This document shows positions 1,847-22,160 of a DNA stretch of 34,056 nt, one piece after another (positions within the stretch are counted from its first letter, which is position 1; each line of letters opens with the position of its first letter). The translations under genes and the position numbers were made by a program. Under the pieces are notes generated by a model. The model searched no databases. It was not told the origin of the DNA and saw nothing but the letters and a program-made list of their open reading frames with translations. Location of the stretch: IMG/VR virus record IMGVR_UViG_3300023184_000047, positions 1 to 34,056 of that record; one strand, written 5' to 3'. Source of the stretch: a virus.

Positions 1847-2764
1847 ATGTCTAAAAAACATGTTGTAGTATCCTTAAGTGGAGGAATGGACAGTAGCACA
1901 CTATTGCTTAGATGTCTAAAAGAGTATGATAGTGTAACAGCTATTTCATTTGACTATGGTCAAAAGCACAGAGTAGAGCTAGAAAGAGCTCAATCATTAG
2001 TAAATTACTTGAATGGTAATGTTGAAAAAACAGAACAAGATCAATTAGGTACAATCACAGTAGTAGGAAAAAACTACAATGAAATTAATTATCGTCAAAT
2101 CCAATTAAACGGATTAGTTGATCTATTAGATTCAGCTTTAGTAACAGGAGGTGAAGATGTACCTGAAGGTCACTATGCAGAAGATAATATGAAAGCAACA
2201 GTTGTTCCTAACAGAAACAAAATATTTGCTTCCATTACTCAAGCAGTAGCTTTATCAGTTGCAAATCGTACAGGAGAGACTTGTGATATTGCTTTAGGCA
2301 TTCATGCTGGGGATCATGCTATTTATCCGGACTGCAGACAAGAATTTAGAGATGCAGATGATGCAGCTTTTAGAATTGGAAACTGGGAAGCAGAAAGAGT
2401 AGGATACTTTACACCTTACTTAGAAGGAGATAAATTTACTATCTTACAAGACGGAGAAGTATTATGTGAAGAATTAGGATTAGATTTTGATGAAGTTTAC
2501 AGAAGAACTAATACTTCTTACAAACCAATTCAACTACTAGTAGAGGGAGTTAACAAAGTGAAGATAAACGATAAGGAAACTCGTTATGAACCTAAATTTG
2601 AATGGTTCTCAGATTATAAATCAGCTTCATCAGTTGAGAGAGTAGAAGCATTTATCAAGTTAGGAAGAAAAGATCCAGCTCCTTATGCAGACGAAACAGG
2701 ACCAGTAACATGGGAACATGTAGTAACAGAAGTAACAAAAGTATTAGAAAACCATAACAAATAA
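1847..2764 (+). CDS. queC: QueC, 7-cyano-7-deazaguanine (preQ0) synthase, without the usual zinc cysteines
   Basis: A 305-residue protein with the PP-loop ATP pyrophosphatase motif SLSGGMDSST at 9-18 and the following DYGQKHRVEL, diagnostic of QueC. QueC converts 7-carboxy-7-deazaguanine to preQ0 using ATP and ammonia. The protein is longer than typical QueC (about 220-230), with an insertion between the P-loop region and the VVPNRNKIF segment. QueC normally binds zinc through four C-terminal cysteines (a SCY segment and a CGxCxxC cluster ahead of ERxEAF). Here the matching places read NTSYKP (222-227) and YKSASSVERVEAF (257-269), with no cysteine, while the rest of that region (ERVEAF...DPAPY) is kept. 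It is therefore recognisable as QueC but altered at a hallmark site. A short gap leads to the next gene. Confidence 0.9.
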   Translation: MSKKHVVVSLSGGMDSSTLLLRCLKEYDSVTAISFDYGQKHRVELERAQSLVNYLNGNVEKTEQDQLGTITVVGKNYNEINYRQIQLNGLVDLLDSALVTGGEDVPEGHYAEDNMKATVVPNRNKIFASITQAVALSVANRTGETCDIALGIHAGDHAIYPDCRQEFRDADDAAFRIGNWEAERVGYFTPYLEGDKFTILQDGEVLCEELGLDFDEVYRRTNTSYKPIQLLVEGVNKVKINDKETRYEPKFEWFSDYKSASSVERVEAFIKLGRKDPAPYADETGPVTWEHVVTEVTKVLENHNK

Positions 2765-2768
2765 AAGC

Positions 2769-3146
2769 ATGAACGAAACAACAACATTCTTAGGAACAAC
2801 AGGAACAACAGTAGGCTACTCAGGAACTTATGGAGGAGGATTTGCAACACCACTTAACGGAGGTAGTGGTACAACCATTTACACAGACAATACAATTTTA
2901 AGTACAGGAGTAACATTATCACAAGCAATAACAAATTCAAATAACATGAGCAAACAAGTAAAAGTAGCTGTATTTACAGTAGAAAGAAACGACAAAAATG
3001 AAGTAACATCTTCTAAATTTGTAAAAGAATTTTGGGTAGAACAAAAGAACGGAGGTTCAGTTGTATTAGCAGCAGCTAAACAATTAGATAAAGACTTCGA
3101 TCCAGACACGATTATGATTAGAGAAGTACAAGTAGTACAGTTCTAA
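2769..3146 (+). CDS. Thr/Gly-rich hypothetical protein, 125 aa
   Basis: Residues 1-58 are low complexity, rich in Thr, Gly, Ser and Asn (for example TTTFLGTTGTTVGYSGTYGGG). Residues 60-125 look like an ordinary small alpha/beta domain (MSKQVKVAVFTVERND ... MIREVQVVQF). An internal ATG at 2946, exactly at the start of the folded part, is a plausible alternative start, giving a 66-residue protein. The frame stays open from 2769 and the low-complexity part has coding-like codon use, so I keep the long form. I do not recognise either part. Gly/Thr-rich segments occur in phage structural proteins, but nothing nearby supports that. Its stop borders the RNA locus. Confidence 0.6.
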   Translation: MNETTTFLGTTGTTVGYSGTYGGGFATPLNGGSGTTIYTDNTILSTGVTLSQAITNSNNMSKQVKVAVFTVERNDKNEVTSSKFVKEFWVEQKNGGSVVLAAAKQLDKDFDPDTIMIREVQVVQF

Positions 3147-3150
3147 AAAT

Positions 3151-3468
3151 AAAACACCTCCCAGTAGATAGGTCCGCCAAGAAAGTCTTTAAACAACGTG
3201 GGAACTGCGGCTCTCCCAATGTGGCTGGAATGTTTTATAAAAAAGTAACCCTAGTTATAAGGTCTTAAGTGGATAGGAAGCCCAGAGAAAATCGAAAGTG
3301 GATAGAATAATTTAAGAAGCTAAGTAATAGGGTACAAAATAAAAACTACTTGAGTAAGTGGGAGTGGTCAATCAACAACCCAAAGAAGTTCCAGGTAAAT
3401 CAATATGATATGGGATAGGCGAGCCTAAATCAGTAAGTAGCAAGTTAGTGTGTTTTTTCAAGGATTGA
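3151..3468 (+). ncRNA. Candidate structured noncoding RNA, unknown class
   Basis: No ORF of any useful length occurs here, yet nested complementary segments do. Domain 1: AAAACA 3151-3156 with TGTTTT 3231-3236, then CCAG 3161-3164 with CTGG 3225-3228, enclosing a hairpin TGGGA 3199-3203 / TCCCA 3214-3218 whose loop has GCGG (3207-3210) able to pair with CCGC 3174-3177 as a pseudoknot. Domain 2: ACCCTA 3248-3253 with TAGGGT 3328-3333, and inside it TCTTAA 3263-3268 with TTAAGA 3312-3317; it also holds two copies of GTGGATAG (3269, 3298). Domain 3: CTACTT 3346-3351 with AAGTAG 3435-3440, plus hairpin TAGG/CCTA 3416-3427. TCAATC 3368-3373 could pair with GATTGA 3463-3468. Just downstream are tRNA-like genes and a tmRNA. 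Pairings were found by eye; class and exact ends are unknown. Confidence 0.45.
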
Positions 3469-3493
3469 ATAGTTTTTAACATTAGCGAAAAAT

Positions 3494-3570
3494 AGTCAGG
3501 TGGTGTAATGGTAGCAGTTCCAACGTCCACAAAACTAGGAAGAGTACAGGTTCGAATCCTGTCCTGATTA
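3494..3570 (+). tRNA. tRNA-like gene with an enlarged anticodon loop (identity unassigned)
   Basis: The acceptor stem AGTCAGG 3494-3500 pairs with CCTGATT 3563-3569 (one G-U), followed by discriminator A. The T arm ACAGG-TTCGAAT-CCTGT (3546-3562) is perfect, and the D arm GTGTAATGGTAGCA is typical. CCA is not encoded. The anticodon arm is abnormal: placing 27-31 at TCCAA (3519-3523) and 39-43 at TAGGA (3536-3540) gives four pairs with one A-A mismatch and leaves a 12-base loop instead of 7, making the RNA 77 bases long with a short variable region. No anticodon can be assigned; CCA preceded by T (3526-3529) is one option. The 3' end from 3545 is identical over 23 bases to that of the second tRNA-like gene. 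It may be a decayed, insertion-bearing or otherwise unusual tRNA. Confidence 0.6.
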
Positions 3571-3576
3571 CAATGA

Positions 3577-3717
3577 GTTGATTACTCAGACAGCTATGTC
3601 TAGCTAGAAAGACATCGACATACTCTTGGGCGCAGACAAGAGCGGGTTTTGAAATCTATTTTCGCCGTTACGGAAACTAGGCTCGGAAGGCAACATATTT
3701 CGTGAGGTCTAATCAAC
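3577..3717 (+). ncRNA. Folded spacer RNA between the two tRNA-like genes
   Basis: The segment is closed by an exact 8-base complementarity, GTTGATTA 3577-3584 with TAATCAAC 3710-3717. Inside are two clean hairpins: AGACA 3588-3592 / TGTCT 3597-3601 with loop GCTA, and CTCTTG 3623-3628 / CAAGAG 3637-3642 with an 8-base loop, plus a small CCG/CGG hairpin near 3665-3673. There is no credible + strand ORF. It could be a separate small RNA, a degenerate tRNA, or part of a larger RNA including the tRNA-like elements. The fold was found by eye. Confidence 0.35.
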
Positions 3718-3730
3718 CATAATTGCAAAC

Positions 3731-3825
3731 AGTCAGGTGGCGGAATGGTAGACGCTAAAGAGTCAAAGAGTCGTGCTTCTAAACTCTGAGGTAACACCAT
3801 ACAGGTTCGAATCCTGTCCTGACTA
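3731..3825 (+). tRNA. Class II (Leu-like) tRNA gene with tandem duplication and enlarged anticodon arm
   Basis: Acceptor AGTCAGG 3731-3737 pairs perfectly with CCTGACT 3818-3824, then discriminator A. The D arm GGCGGAATGGTAGACGC is typical of tRNA-Leu; the T arm ACAGG-TTCGAAT-CCTGT is at 3801-3817; a variable hairpin GGT-AAC-ACC is at 3790-3798. The length, 95 bases, is about ten more than usual. The excess is in the anticodon arm, where AAAGAGTC occurs twice in tandem (3757-3764, 3765-3772). The stem AGAGT/ACTCT can form with either copy, leaving a loop of 11 bases (second copy) or more. The last seven loop bases CTTCTAA would give anticodon TCT, but a Leu-like body with an Arg anticodon is odd, so I leave it unassigned. 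Confidence 0.62.
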
Positions 3826-3840
3826 CTATTTATACAAAAC

Positions 3841-4205
3841 GGGGATGACTGGTTTTGACAAGTTATAAGTAATTAATACAATTCAGCCCAGAGAGAGAAC
3901 TGGTAAAAACTAAGGTGAAATTAATAAATGGCAAAAACAATTCTCGTGTAGTGGCTCTAGGAGCAAACGCACAAATCGAAGCTAACATGAACAAAGTATT
4001 CTCTTTAATCGGAGAAGAAGTTGCTGTAGCAGCCTAAATTAAACAAGATTTCTTAGTTAGATTAAACTGAGTGGTGGTTTCGCTGGCTTAATTGTCGGCC
4101 CTAGAGTGCGCCTGTAGACTCTTTAAATAAGTATGGGGACAAAAGCTGTATAAAGTTGTATTGAAGAACATGGTTTGGACGCGGGTTCGACTCCCGCCAT
4201 CTCCA
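3841..4205 (+). ncRNA. ssrA: tmRNA (transfer-messenger RNA)
   Basis: The 5' end GGGGATG 3841-3847 pairs with CATCTCC 4198-4204 (one G-U), followed by discriminator A; CCA is not encoded. The 5' part continues GACTGGTTTTGACA, the typical tmRNA D-loop region, and the 3' part has the T arm GCGGG-TTCGACT-CCCGC. Helix P2 can form from AATACAA 3875-3881 and TTGTATT 4156-4162. A pseudoknot-like segment (CCAG ... CTGG) precedes the tag frame, and hairpins such as GAGT ... ACTC follow it. The total of about 365 bases is normal. tmRNA with SmpB rescues stalled ribosomes and adds a degradation tag. Phage-encoded tmRNAs are uncommon. The acceptor and T arm leave little doubt; details of the pseudoknots are not resolved here. 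Confidence 0.93.
3930..4037 (+). other. tmRNA tag reading frame, predicted 35 residues
   Basis: The frame begins GGC AAA AAC AAT (GKNN) and ends in GEEVAVAA before TAA at 4035-4037. GGC is nucleotide 90 of the RNA, the same place as the resume codon of E. coli tmRNA, and its context (TTAATAAAT then GGC) matches what I recall for Bacteroidetes tmRNAs, whose tags read GENNYALAA or similar. The tag then runs on far longer than the usual 8-11 residues. Other resume points in the same frame, GCT 3954 and GCA 3963, each have TAG five bases upstream and would give 27 or 24 residues. All versions end in AVAA, a ClpXP-type degron end. Confidence 0.65.
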
Positions 4206-4232
4206 CTATTTTTAATTTTTAATTTAATCGTT

Positions 4233-4464: not shown

Positions 4465-4490
4465 GCCCCTTATAGGAGGGGCTATATTTA
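4465..4490 (+). terminator. Intrinsic terminator after the HTH gene
   Basis: GCCCCT 4465-4470 pairs with AGGGGC 4477-4482 around loop TATAGG, followed by TATATTTATT. A GC-rich stem in such an AT-rich region, placed 13 bases after a stop codon, is typical of a Rho-independent terminator. It ends the RNA/HTH unit. Confidence 0.7.
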
Positions 4491-16674: not shown

Positions 16675-19260
16675 ATGTATCAAAGTATTTATTACAATAG
16701 AAGCGCAAAGCAATATCATTTAAGAGATGACAAGAAAGGATGGATTGAATTCCAATACCGTCCTACTTGTTATATTGCTAACGAAGGAGGTGAATATGAG
16801 ACCTTAGAAGGCTCTAGAGTAACTCCAACTAAACAGTATAGTTATAAAGATCCTAATGCTTATGAAAGCGATGTGGATAAATTTACACGGATCCTAGTAG
16901 ATACCTACTACGACTCAGATGACACACCATCTTATCAAAATATAGTTTATTTAGATATTGAGTGTGAAATAGCAGGAGCCCTTACCCAAGATAGTGTTCG
17001 AAACCCTCAAGGTAAAATAACTGCTATTGCTGTGTATGATAATAATTCTACAACTTACTACTGTTATATTTTAGATGAAGCGCAAGCTATGACTCCATCT
17101 GAAACAGAAGGCAGAAGCATTATACCCTGCCCATCAGAAAAAGACTTATTAGCTCGATTCCTCAATAAATGGGAAGAATTAGACCCAACAATAATATCAG
17201 GTTGGAACAGTGAATTCTTCGATATACCGTACTTATATCACCGAATGGCCAAGGTATTGGGAAAAGAAGAGGCCGCGCGTATATCGCCGTTAAATCAAGT
17301 AGATGACACCGAATTCTTAGGAGTTAAAACCACTACTATAGCAGGTTTAAACCATCTTGATTATATGTTATTATTTAAAAAATATGTAACAACTCAAGAA
17401 CCATCTTATGCTTTAGGTAATATAGGTGAAAAATATGTTAAATTAGGTAAACTTGAATATTTAGGATCTTTAGATAAGTTATTTAAAGATGATATTCAAA
17501 AATTTATAGATTACAACATTCGAGATGTTGAAATTATCATTGAACTAGAAAAGAAACTTAAATTTATTGATTTAACTGTTACGGTATGTCATTTATGTCA
17601 TGTCCCTTATGACCAGATTTACATGTCGACTATGTTAAATGAAGGTGCTATTTTAACTTATTTAAAACGTAAAGGAATAGTTTCACCAAACAAACCTACA
17701 ACATATAATCCTTCATTACGAGATATTAAAGAAGAATACGCTGGTGGTTATTTAAAAGATCCTACTCCGGGATTATATGAATGGGTTATTGATTTGGACT
17801 TTACATCACTATATCCATCAATTATCCGTTCATTAAACATAGGTATTGAAACTTTAGTAGGACGTATTGTAAATAGAGACAAATATGATAATCAATGGTC
17901 TCTTAAAGAACTTAAAACACTTAATCCTGAAACTGAAGTTACTATTGAACGAATTAATACTAATCGAGGAGTAGTTCGATCTACAGTAAAAATAGAAAAA
18001 CTAATTAATCTAATCGAACAAGAAAACTGGATTATATCAGCTCCTGGGGTTATATTTAGAAAAGATAAGGAAAGTGTAGTATGTGAAATATTAACAGATT
18101 GGTTTAATAAAAGAAGTGAATATAAGGCGTTAATGAAAGATGCCTTTAAAGTTAAAAAAGATCCAATATTAGGAGACTTTTATAATAGACGCCAACATGC
18201 TTATAAAATTAAATTAAATGACGTTTATGGGTGTTACGCTATTAATGGGTGGAGATACACTGACGGGCATAAATTTATATCTAAAGCCATTACTTTAACA
18301 GGACAACGCTTAATTCAAGAATCTATTAAACATGTGAATAAATGGATGAACAATCAAATCAATACAGAAGGTATTGATTACATTGTAACTTCAGATACTG
18401 ATTCACTTTTTATTCAAGTTAAAGATTTGTTAAGACAAAGATATCCTGACTTAGATTTAAACAATAGAGAAGAAACAGTTAAATATGTTTTAGAAATTGC
18501 TACAGAAGTGCAAAAAATAGCGAATGATAATTTGCATGGTTTAGTAGTTGAATTATTTAATCTACATGATAGAGAACATTATTTTGATTTAAAACAAGAA
18601 GTTGTACTTGAACGAGGTTATTTCGCTGGTAAAAGACGTTATGCTCAGTTTATAGTAAATAAGGAGGGAGTTCCTGTAGAAGAATTAGATATTAAGGGAT
18701 TAGATTTAATGAAATCAAATTTTCCACCTTATTTTAGAGATTTTTCAAAACAATTACTTCAAGACATTATGTTTGGTAAATCTAAACCTGAAATAGATAA
18801 ACAAATAATAACCTTTAGAGAGAGTATAGACACTGTAGATTGGAAACTTTTATTAAAACCTACTGGATTGAAAAATGTAAGTGAATATATTGCATCATCT
18901 CCTAGATCTGGTGAAATATTTTCCAAATTAGAATTAAAATGCCCTATCAATACTAAATCGGCTATATACTACAATGATTTACTTAGATTCAAAAAATTAG
19001 ATAAACAATACAATACATTCCAAATTGGAGATAAAATGTTTATTGCTTATTTAAAAGATAATCCTTATAAAATAGAAGTAATAGGTTTTAATGGATATAA
19101 CGATCCTCCCTTCATTACAGAGTTTATAGAAAAATACTTAGATAAAACTAAAATTTTTGATTCTGTTATAAAAAACAAATTAGAAACTATTTATGAGGAT
19201 TTAAAATGGGGTAAACCTATATTCAATAATAACATAAATAAATTCTTTAAATTTGGATAA
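16675..19260 (+). CDS. 43: DNA polymerase, family B (T4 gp43-like)
   Basis: An 861-residue replicative polymerase with both activities visible in order. 3'-5' exonuclease: YLDIECE near 91-97 (Exo I), SGWNSEFFDIPYL near 175-187 (Exo II), YNIRDVEII near 280 (Exo III). Polymerase: DLDFTSLYPSIIRS near 373 (motif A), KIKLNDVYGCYA near 511 (motif B) and TSDTDSLF near 572 (motif C, catalytic aspartates). The length is close to T4 gp43 (898). The C-terminus ends INKFFKFG, a hydrophobic tail that could bind the sliding clamp, as in gp43. It begins the replication block; the clamp gene follows after a 27-base gap with its own promoter-like boxes. Confidence 0.97.
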   Translation: MYQSIYYNRSAKQYHLRDDKKGWIEFQYRPTCYIANEGGEYETLEGSRVTPTKQYSYKDPNAYESDVDKFTRILVDTYYDSDDTPSYQNIVYLDIECEIAGALTQDSVRNPQGKITAIAVYDNNSTTYYCYILDEAQAMTPSETEGRSIIPCPSEKDLLARFLNKWEELDPTIISGWNSEFFDIPYLYHRMAKVLGKEEAARISPLNQVDDTEFLGVKTTTIAGLNHLDYMLLFKKYVTTQEPSYALGNIGEKYVKLGKLEYLGSLDKLFKDDIQKFIDYNIRDVEIIIELEKKLKFIDLTVTVCHLCHVPYDQIYMSTMLNEGAILTYLKRKGIVSPNKPTTYNPSLRDIKEEYAGGYLKDPTPGLYEWVIDLDFTSLYPSIIRSLNIGIETLVGRIVNRDKYDNQWSLKELKTLNPETEVTIERINTNRGVVRSTVKIEKLINLIEQENWIISAPGVIFRKDKESVVCEILTDWFNKRSEYKALMKDAFKVKKDPILGDFYNRRQHAYKIKLNDVYGCYAINGWRYTDGHKFISKAITLTGQRLIQESIKHVNKWMNNQINTEGIDYIVTSDTDSLFIQVKDLLRQRYPDLDLNNREETVKYVLEIATEVQKIANDNLHGLVVELFNLHDREHYFDLKQEVVLERGYFAGKRRYAQFIVNKEGVPVEELDIKGLDLMKSNFPPYFRDFSKQLLQDIMFGKSKPEIDKQIITFRESIDTVDWKLLLKPTGLKNVSEYIASSPRSGEIFSKLELKCPINTKSAIYYNDLLRFKKLDKQYNTFQIGDKMFIAYLKDNPYKIEVIGFNGYNDPPFITEFIEKYLDKTKIFDSVIKNKLETIYEDLKWGKPIFNNNINKFFKFG

Positions 19261-20528: not shown

Positions 20529-22160
20529 ATGAAAACAGCCTTTAATCAAGACGCTAAAGAGAAATTAGCAAAGGGTATTAAAACCGTAGCAGACGCTGTA
20601 GGTTCTACCTTAGGTCCATATGGACGAAATGTATTATTCCTTGACGAATATGGGAGTGTACGTAGTACAAAAGATGGTGTAACTGTAGCTAAAGAGCTTA
20701 AAAAACTTGAAGACCCTATTGAAAATATGGGAGCACAAACAGTAAAACAAGCATCTATTAAAACTGCTGATAAAGCAGGAGACGGTACTACTACATCAAC
20801 TGTATTAGCTAATGAATTAATTCAAAAAGCATTTAATAGTATCAACGCCAATACTAATGTTGTATTAGTAAAAAAAGGTATTGAAGCAGGAGCTGCTGAA
20901 GTATTAACAGGTTTAAAACAAATTAAACGTGAAATTACTTCTCCGGAGCAAATTAAGCAAGTAGCCACTATCTCTGCTAACAACGACGACGAAATTGGAG
21001 CATTAGTTGCTGAAGCTATGGAATTAGTAGGACAAGATGGTGTTGTAACTGTTGAAGAATCTAAAACAGGAGAAACATCATTAGAAACAGTTGAAGGTAT
21101 TCAATTTGACAGAGGATATAAATCAATGTACTTTGTAACAGATAACAATTCAATGTCCGCCACATTACAAGACCCAGTAATCTTAATTTATAATGGGCGT
21201 TTAGTATCAGTTAAAGAATTACTTCCAATTCTTGAAGGTGCTTCTCAAACAGATAGTTCATTGTTAATCATTGCTGAAGACATTGATGGTGAAGCTTTAT
21301 CTACGTTAATCGTAAATAAAATGAGAGGTATGTTAAAAGTAGTAGCGGTTAAAGCTCCTGACTTTGGAGATAGACGTGCTGCCGTTTTAGAAGATATTGC
21401 TACTGTAACGGGTGGAACTGTAGTGTCACCTGAAAAAGGTATGAAATTAGATAGATTTAATTCTGATTGGTTTGGTACTTCTAGAGTTGTAACTGTAACT
21501 AAAGATACTACTACAATTGTAGATGGTAGAGGTGAAGAAACTGCTGTTCAAGAACGTGTAGGTGAATTAAAAGAACACATAGGAAAAGCCACCTCAGCAT
21601 TTGAAAAAGAACATTTACAAGAACGTTTAGGTAAATTAGTAGGTGGTGTAGCTGTAATCAATATTGGTGGTGCTACTGAAACTGAAATTAAAGAGAAAAA
21701 AGATCGTATCGATGATGCTCTTCAAGCAACAAAAGCTGCTTTAGAAGAAGGATTATTACCTGGTGGCGGTATTGCTTTGTTAGAAGCTAGAGAAGGAATT
21801 ACTCAAAATAAAACAGACGGAGGTGACTTTAACTTAGGTAAAAGAATTGCTCATGCTGCTTGTGGAGCTCCATTCTTAAAAATTCTTACAAATGCTGGTA
21901 TTGAAACTACAAGTGAAATTATTTTCGCTCTTCGTAAAGCTAGAGAGGATAACCCAGAAAAAGGTCGTACATTTGGATATGATATAAAAACAGAAACAGT
22001 AACAGATATGTTTGAAGCTGGTATTATAGATCCAATGAAAGTAGTACGCACAGCGTTAGCAAATGCTGTATCCGTTGCCGGAACTATACTGTTAACAGAG
22101 TGTGTAATTTATGATGAACCTAAAAAAGATAAAGATGATCAACAACAGCTTATGGGTTGA
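20529..22160 (+). CDS. groEL: GroEL-like chaperonin, full length
   Basis: A 543-residue group I chaperonin, near the 548 of E. coli GroEL. Conserved sites include STLGPYGRNVLFLD at 26-39 (nucleotide pocket), KDGVTVAKE at 48-56, KAGDGTTTSTVLA at 82-94 (Asp and Thr for ATP hydrolysis), GGATETEIKEKKDRIDDA near 385 with the catalytic Asp, and EEGLLPGGGIALLEA near 410. The apical segment is well conserved. The C-terminus ends QQQLMG instead of the usual GGM repeats. It forms double rings that work with the adjacent GroES. Few phages carry both genes. The end of the gene overlaps the clamp loader start by 26 bases. Confidence 0.97.
   Translation: MKTAFNQDAKEKLAKGIKTVADAVGSTLGPYGRNVLFLDEYGSVRSTKDGVTVAKELKKLEDPIENMGAQTVKQASIKTADKAGDGTTTSTVLANELIQKAFNSINANTNVVLVKKGIEAGAAEVLTGLKQIKREITSPEQIKQVATISANNDDEIGALVAEAMELVGQDGVVTVEESKTGETSLETVEGIQFDRGYKSMYFVTDNNSMSATLQDPVILIYNGRLVSVKELLPILEGASQTDSSLLIIAEDIDGEALSTLIVNKMRGMLKVVAVKAPDFGDRRAAVLEDIATVTGGTVVSPEKGMKLDRFNSDWFGTSRVVTVTKDTTTIVDGRGEETAVQERVGELKEHIGKATSAFEKEHLQERLGKLVGGVAVINIGGATETEIKEKKDRIDDALQATKAALEEGLLPGGGIALLEAREGITQNKTDGGDFNLGKRIAHAACGAPFLKILTNAGIETTSEIIFALRKAREDNPEKGRTFGYDIKTETVTDMFEAGIIDPMKVVRTALANAVSVAGTILLTECVIYDEPKKDKDDQQQLMG

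Follow-up and report, generated by a model that had tools for sequence, protein, structure and literature searches.

In organelle transcripts, the tRNAs that lie between protein genes set the ends of the RNAs, an arrangement called tRNA punctuation; the minimal substrate of RNase P is an acceptor stem with a T arm. Structured RNAs, such as GOLLD and ROOL, lie beside the tRNA islands of phages, and to our knowledge their function is not known. GOLLD and ROOL are each single phage or prophage RNAs of several hundred nucleotides, which form nanocages and are often encoded near tRNA islands (PMC12286853). In the mammalian RNA MALAT1, a tRNA-like element is excised by RNases P and Z, and the new end is a protective U-A-U triple helix (PMC12609000); MALAT1 and NEAT1 have been described as the only lncRNAs that tRNA-processing enzymes mature (PMC12941219).

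The window analysed here is 34,056 bases long and starts at the first base of an IMG/VR record of 117,779 bases. A non-coding region within it, 3151-3468, is flanked on one side by a QueC gene and a 125-aa ORF, and on the other by two tRNA-likes, a spacer and a tmRNA. An earlier note on this DNA had called the region free of ORFs, and indeed no ORF of at least 50 aa is present on the plus strand from 3147 to 4160. The features of the locus are as follows.

2769..3146, plus strand: 125-aa ORF, with its stop codon (3144-3146) just 5' of module A; used as query for fetching relatives
3150..3237, plus strand: module A, a pseudoknotted RNA of about 88 nt (75 IMG/VR stretches, covariance model, covariation); helices P1 3150-3156/3231-3237, P2 3161-3164/3225-3228, a two-pair helix 3194-3195/3222-3223, P3 3199-3203/3214-3218, and a pseudoknot 3174-3177/3207-3210
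3248..3333, plus strand: module B, a hairpin domain closed by ACCCTA/TAGGGT, with an inner TCTTAA/TTAAGA helix and two copies of GTGGATAG
3340..3490, plus strand: module C, a pseudoknot-capable RNA (covariance model, covariation); helix 3347-3352/3434-3439, 3' stem 3444-3451/3479-3486, candidate pseudoknot (PK2) 3368-3373/3463-3468; A5C at 3341-3346 can pair with GU5 at 3472-3477; second U tract 3453-3458
3494..3570, plus strand: tRNA-like t1 (Rfam tRNA, 40.4 bits; ARAGORN finds none)
3573..3725, plus strand: module F, a helix-closed spacer, GTTGATTA...TAATCAAC, between t1 and t2 (nhmmer, alignment)
3731..3826, plus strand: tRNA-like t2, with a Leu-like D arm and an abnormal anticodon region; called Phe(aaa) by ARAGORN
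3841..4206, plus strand: tmRNA, with tag ANAQIEANMNKVFSLIGEEVAVAA
4465..4482, plus strand: terminator-like hairpin after a small ORF 3' of the tmRNA (consensus scan)

The hairpin at 4465..4482 is a possible transcript end. Module F is conserved, with homologues in L024, L028, L052 and L080 detected by nhmmer and alignment. Elsewhere the window encodes QueC (1847-2764), a T4-type DNA polymerase (16675-19260; best cultured match 36% identity) and a GroEL-like chaperonin (20529-22160). Upstream of A in the related locus L033 lies TATATTTG, which we take to be a Bacteroidetes-type -7 sequence, and the related modules D and EB are present in Flavobacterium and Cellulophaga phages, immuto and phi14:2 among them; from these two observations only, we infer that Bacteroidota are the host group.

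The sequence words listed in the earlier note all lie where it placed them: AAAACA at 3151 and TGTTTT at 3231, ACCCTA at 3248 and TAGGGT at 3328, TCTTAA at 3263 and TTAAGA at 3312, CTACTT at 3346 and AAGTAG at 3435, the candidate pseudoknot words CCGC (3174)/GCGG (3207) and TCAATC (3368)/GATTGA (3463), and the repeat GTGGATAG, present at both 3269 and 3298. It had counted at least three helix-closed domains; three were confirmed at the coordinates given above, and their homologues show that the domains are real. Its further view, that the pairings are more orderly than expected by chance, receives no support from this sequence alone. The native region was matched or bettered in folding by 87 of 100 shuffles (MFE z-score +1.11), and perfect 6-bp inverted pairs within 130 nt numbered 8, compared with 7.1 +/- 3.4 in dinucleotide shuffles. 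Because the pairings in the single sequence are no better than chance, the case rests on relatives.

Twenty relatives were fetched with the neighbouring 125-aa protein as query. Comparison by blastn revealed three distinct conserved blocks, with breaks at the borders of the helix-closed domains: block A (about 3146-3241) was 91-98% identical in seven loci, block B 88% over 85 nt in L010/L011, and block C 94% in L006 and 90% in L017. Pattern scans of IMG/VR then raised A to 36 and subsequently to 75 stretches, some of them in contigs of more than 300 kb, and C to 12. Scans of cultured phages and plasmids for A, B and C found none. A search of 84,980 genomes of bacteria and archaea gave three matches to the core of A; we rejected all three as module A because their flanks differ and they appear to belong to a single conserved coding sequence. 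We found no earlier description of these modules in the open-access literature, a scope that leaves out most subscription papers and preprints.

Covariance models were run against 30 whole records, which had been chosen for holding related loci, so that the counts are not population frequencies; the E-values are rough. The A model matched 21 records, with one clear copy in each (E 1e-22 to 1e-25), and the C model matched 15, again with one copy each. One record had a second, insignificant match to the A model (E 0.73). A match in L103 (16.9 bits, many broken pairs) was excluded from the A count.

The covariation check that the earlier note had called for supports module A, including its pseudoknot, as well as the 3' stem of C. 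Among 16 distinct sequences of A, 13 of the 22 pairs show compensatory changes on both sides, and 98.5% of cells are paired, compared with 24-48% when the partners are slid by one to three columns. The covariation score of A is 0.349, against 0.136 in shuffles; these alignments draw on related and partly redundant sequences from one collection, and the shuffle statistics are not exact probabilities. P1 occurs as TAAAACA/TGTTTTA, ATTATCA/TGATGAT, AAAGCA/TGCTTT and AAATTA/TAATTT, and P2 as CCAG/CTGG, TCGG/CCGA, CTAG/CTAG and TCAG/CTGA. The pseudoknot varies between CCGC/GCGG, CTGC/GCAG and CTGT/ACAG, all of them complementary, and P3 is invariant across the clear members. The stop codon of the upstream gene overlaps the first helix of A in 13 of the 14 group-1 copies tested; in the window it just precedes A. 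A borderline A-like element also lies between tRNA-Asp and tRNA-Met in L020 (8848-8934; 17.1 bits, E 0.06-0.7 depending on search size). It keeps the CCGC/GCGG pseudoknot, and by eye P3 can be read as TCAGT/ACTGA, which suggests a family wider than the clear A members.

Module B is the weakest-supported of the three. It has one distinct homologue, in L010/L011, and a pattern search gave no further one. In the same two loci its interior also occurs within EB, a larger phage RNA of about 350-500 nt, as the insert of the 3' domain; EB was found in about 67 IMG/VR stretches. The layout of EB is AGGTTAAACATTGAATACC...TGTGTTGTTCCCTTGAGAAAGGAA...CAACACAAATGAGTTCTCAGC...ACCCTACTCTTAT[insert]ATAAGAAAGAGGGT, and clear covariation is seen in TGTGTTG/CAACACA, ACGTGAG/CTCACGT and TGCGTT/AACGCA. 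The cultured crAss-like Cellulophaga phage phi14:2 carries it. Copies were placed at the following positions.

L005, 1747-2100: EB
L018, 5320-5610: EB
L011, 8460-8850: EB
L058, 1413-1862: EB

Searches of Rfam with the EB copies of L005 and L058 (E <= 2-5) yielded nothing that reached gathering. A further insert, AAGCYCCGTAACTGATAACTCGG..GCT, is common to the D module and the EB 3' domain (L002, L033, L043, L120), where it is preceded by CTCTTRTA and followed by TAYAAGAAAG in both settings. Judged from these shared flanks, we take it to be a peripheral domain that can be swapped between the two RNAs, which share a receptor for it. The D-module pseudoknot core (GGTTAATAGTAGTC...CAGTAACC...GAAAGACC) also occurs inside the tmRNA of phi14:2 (L058, about 2744-2800, tmRNA 2532-3001), as if a spare module had replaced a tmRNA pseudoknot.

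In module C, both-sides changes affect 7 of 36 pairs, and six of these fall among the eight pairs of the 3' stem. The stem has been fully swapped in L185/L187 (ATTTTAACA/TGTTAAAAT), yet remains complementary, and both U tracts and GATTGA are retained there. PK2 (TCAATC/GATTGA) can pair in all 19 distinct copies and is invariant save for one U-G; because it never covaries, it is allowed rather than proven. Of the two pseudoknots claimed in the earlier note, the one in A is thus backed by compensatory changes, while the one in C is compatible with every copy and has no covariation. Pairing of A5C with GU5 is likewise possible in 19/19 copies, and the second U tract has at least four U in every row; all are invariant, so covariation supports neither the A5/U5 pairing nor PK2. 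If the second U tract lay across the pairing of A5C with GU5 in the 3'-stem loop, the arrangement would be that of a U-A-U triple helix. In seven phages of a second group, C opens exactly with the stop codon that ends the ORF upstream (UAAAAAC).

We also considered whether A and C might be coding, the result that the earlier note had named as counting against a structured RNA. About the first 20 codons of the aligned C copies are open in one frame, after which frames and stops diverge. Homologues of A and C contain in-frame stops and indels whose lengths are not divisible by three, and a coding reading was rejected for both; their longest translations had no match in Pfam.

A tRNA-like begins 1-3 nt 3' of the end of the C model in 12 of 19 distinct copies by a strict test that required a 7-bp acceptor, a 5-bp T stem and a TTCRA loop, and in 15 of 19 by eye. 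The same test was passed by 30 of 4000 random positions (0.75%). Four copies have no immediate tRNA-like (L062, L065, L063, L185), and in L185/L187 a hairpin resembling an intrinsic terminator takes its place after C. These tRNA-likes are 74-143 nt long. Their mean identity is 0.91 in the 5' strand of the acceptor, 0.80 in the T arm and acceptor 3' strand, and 0.44 in the middle. ARAGORN recognized none of the 15 as an ordinary tRNA and found seven only with an assumed intron. In the window, t1 starts 3 nt past C with its acceptor (AGTCAGG/CCTGATT) and T arm intact. It does not have the standard anticodon arm of a functional elongator tRNA (5-bp stem, 7-nt loop); the possible stem would enclose a 16-nt loop. 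In the tRNA-likes that follow C, the acceptor and T arm are kept and the decoding half is degenerate.

Arrays on a single strand in related phages combine A and C with tRNA-likes and further modules (D, E/EB, F, G, H, I, J, K, L), and most linkers are 2-11 nt long. The orders seen include A-C-t, A-D-t, A-G-D and A-E-B-G-D-t, and also A-B-D-t, D-C, A-D-t-F and t-C-I-t, where B denotes the EB 3' frame. Whenever a tRNA or tmRNA lies within 2 kb, the nearest is on the same strand as the module (A 25/25, C 15/15, D 19/19). Because the three turn up separately, alone or reordered in relatives, A, B and C do not make up one GOLLD- or ROOL-like RNA; they are three independent conserved modules, which related phages reuse in varied order. 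In the second phage group (L095, L116, L133, L142, L156 and others), two recurrent elements, J (AAGAAACAGAG...GTTTCTT) and L (AGTAGTTTAAGAGACAGAG...TACTCTGC), often come after A, with a tRNA or tRNA-like next in line. Small ORFs within arrays are bracketed by the inverted repeats ACTACCGTTCTTTGAAA ... AAAAGAACGGTAGTT (L011 6130-6465, L012, L020), through which the ends of their mRNAs could pair.

Since the modules are small, shuffled and tied in position to stop codons and decayed tRNAs, they allow a testable proposal about function. Our proposal, to which we give a little less than an even chance, is that A, B and C serve as structured 3' elements in a transcript punctuated by tRNAs, and that C with its tRNA-like forms and protects RNA 3' ends. 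The transcript would run from the stop codon of the protein gene through A, B, C, t1, module F and t2 to the tmRNA. RNase P would cut at the 5' end of the tRNA-like, as the retained acceptor stem and T arm lead us to infer, and leave an RNA with module C as its new 3' end. There, A5 would pair with U5 in the 3'-stem loop, and the second U tract may sit in the groove as a U-A-U triple, so that the triple helix of C would shield the RNA end from 3' exonucleases. A and B would be upstream folding units of the same RNA tail.

For module A this proposal meets three difficulties. Only 6 of 49 copies of A have a tRNA-like within 15 nt. A has long invariant stretches of loop beyond its helices, and this conservation exceeds the needs of a pure end-block, which counts against a 3' tail. 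The promoter-like sequences just upstream of A in a few phages (L033, L002) would place it at an RNA 5' end, again counting against a tail. A trans-acting role for A is a serious rival, given that its loops are conserved beyond the helices and each phage has one copy. The modules would then be small RNAs parked in the tRNA operon, freed by tRNA-processing enzymes, that bind a host target (ribosome, RNA polymerase or RNase) during takeover. Consistent with this, the single-copy, 88-nt A is near-identical in phages whose adjacent 125-aa protein is only 46-83% identical, and the modules have tRNA-like closed ends and short linkers. The association of C with stop codons and with sites 5' of tRNA-likes points instead to a role in cis, and no target was found; on balance we think action in trans somewhat unlikely. 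In 42 of 47 copies of A, a tRNA-like lies downstream on the same strand within 1 kb. This, and the position of A, which mostly leads its module string on the tRNA strand, would suit elements that act on RNA polymerase, as the antitermination RNAs PUT and EAR do, or that insulate tRNA folding, and would thereby secure full transcription and processing of a long untranslated array. However, A stands mid-array in the second phage group, C lies at gene ends, and Rfam shows no likeness to known antiterminators, and we consider such a role improbable.

The earlier note had seen one large ornate RNA beside the tRNA and tmRNA genes, perhaps a new or divergent relative of GOLLD and ROOL. A structured multi-domain region is indeed present there, A, B and C are contiguous in the window, and the separate EB RNA, itself 350-500 nt, carries the interior of B in L010/L011. 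That the three would be domains of a single RNA is contradicted by the shuffling of the modules, and Rfam searches of window positions 3100-3850, strict (gathering score) and loose (to E = 10), returned tRNA and tmRNA only, with neither GOLLD nor ROOL; we rate this reading as very improbable. We give the slimmest of chances to decoys, in which the tRNA-likes and modules would bait anticodon nucleases or other phage defences that target tRNAs. Although the degenerate anticodon regions vary between phages, as bait in an arms race would, A and C themselves are nearly invariant, and the variable half is the one that anticodon nucleases would have to recognize.

Returning to the RNA 3' ends that C with its tRNA-like would make and protect, we know of no such way of making or protecting them in bacteria or their viruses. 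A broader form of the proposal, which we think rather unlikely and which is drawn by analogy, is that Bacteroidota phages have a convergent MALAT1-like device, with a triple-helix C on the stop codon, a tRNA-like that has lost decoding as the RNase P signal, and exchangeable upstream modules. If C with its tRNA-like does make and protect RNA ends, RNase P cleavage combined with a triple helix would have arisen separately in mammals and phages, and many annotated phage tRNAs would be processing signals, not decoders.

Among known systems, A, B and C resemble GOLLD and ROOL in being structured non-coding phage RNAs near tRNA genes, and differ in being 85-150 nt long, shuffled, also solitary, and without an Rfam match. 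The tmRNA (RF00023), with its tRNA-like top half lacking an anticodon, is a member of this array; A, B and C are modules separate from it and not parts of the tmRNA. As in organelle punctuation, the phage tRNA-likes lie between protein genes and would be expected to define RNA ends, whereas here they are degenerate in the decoding half and have dedicated structured modules 5' of them. The 3' ends of MALAT1 and NEAT1 are like C in having two U tracts and an A tract, set in a stem-loop or pseudoknot element, directly 5' of a non-decoding tRNA-like. In MALAT1, where cleavage and triple helix have been demonstrated, the A tract lies 3'; in C, for which both are predicted from sequence, it lies 5' of the stem, and the likeness between the mammalian and phage elements implies no common ancestry.
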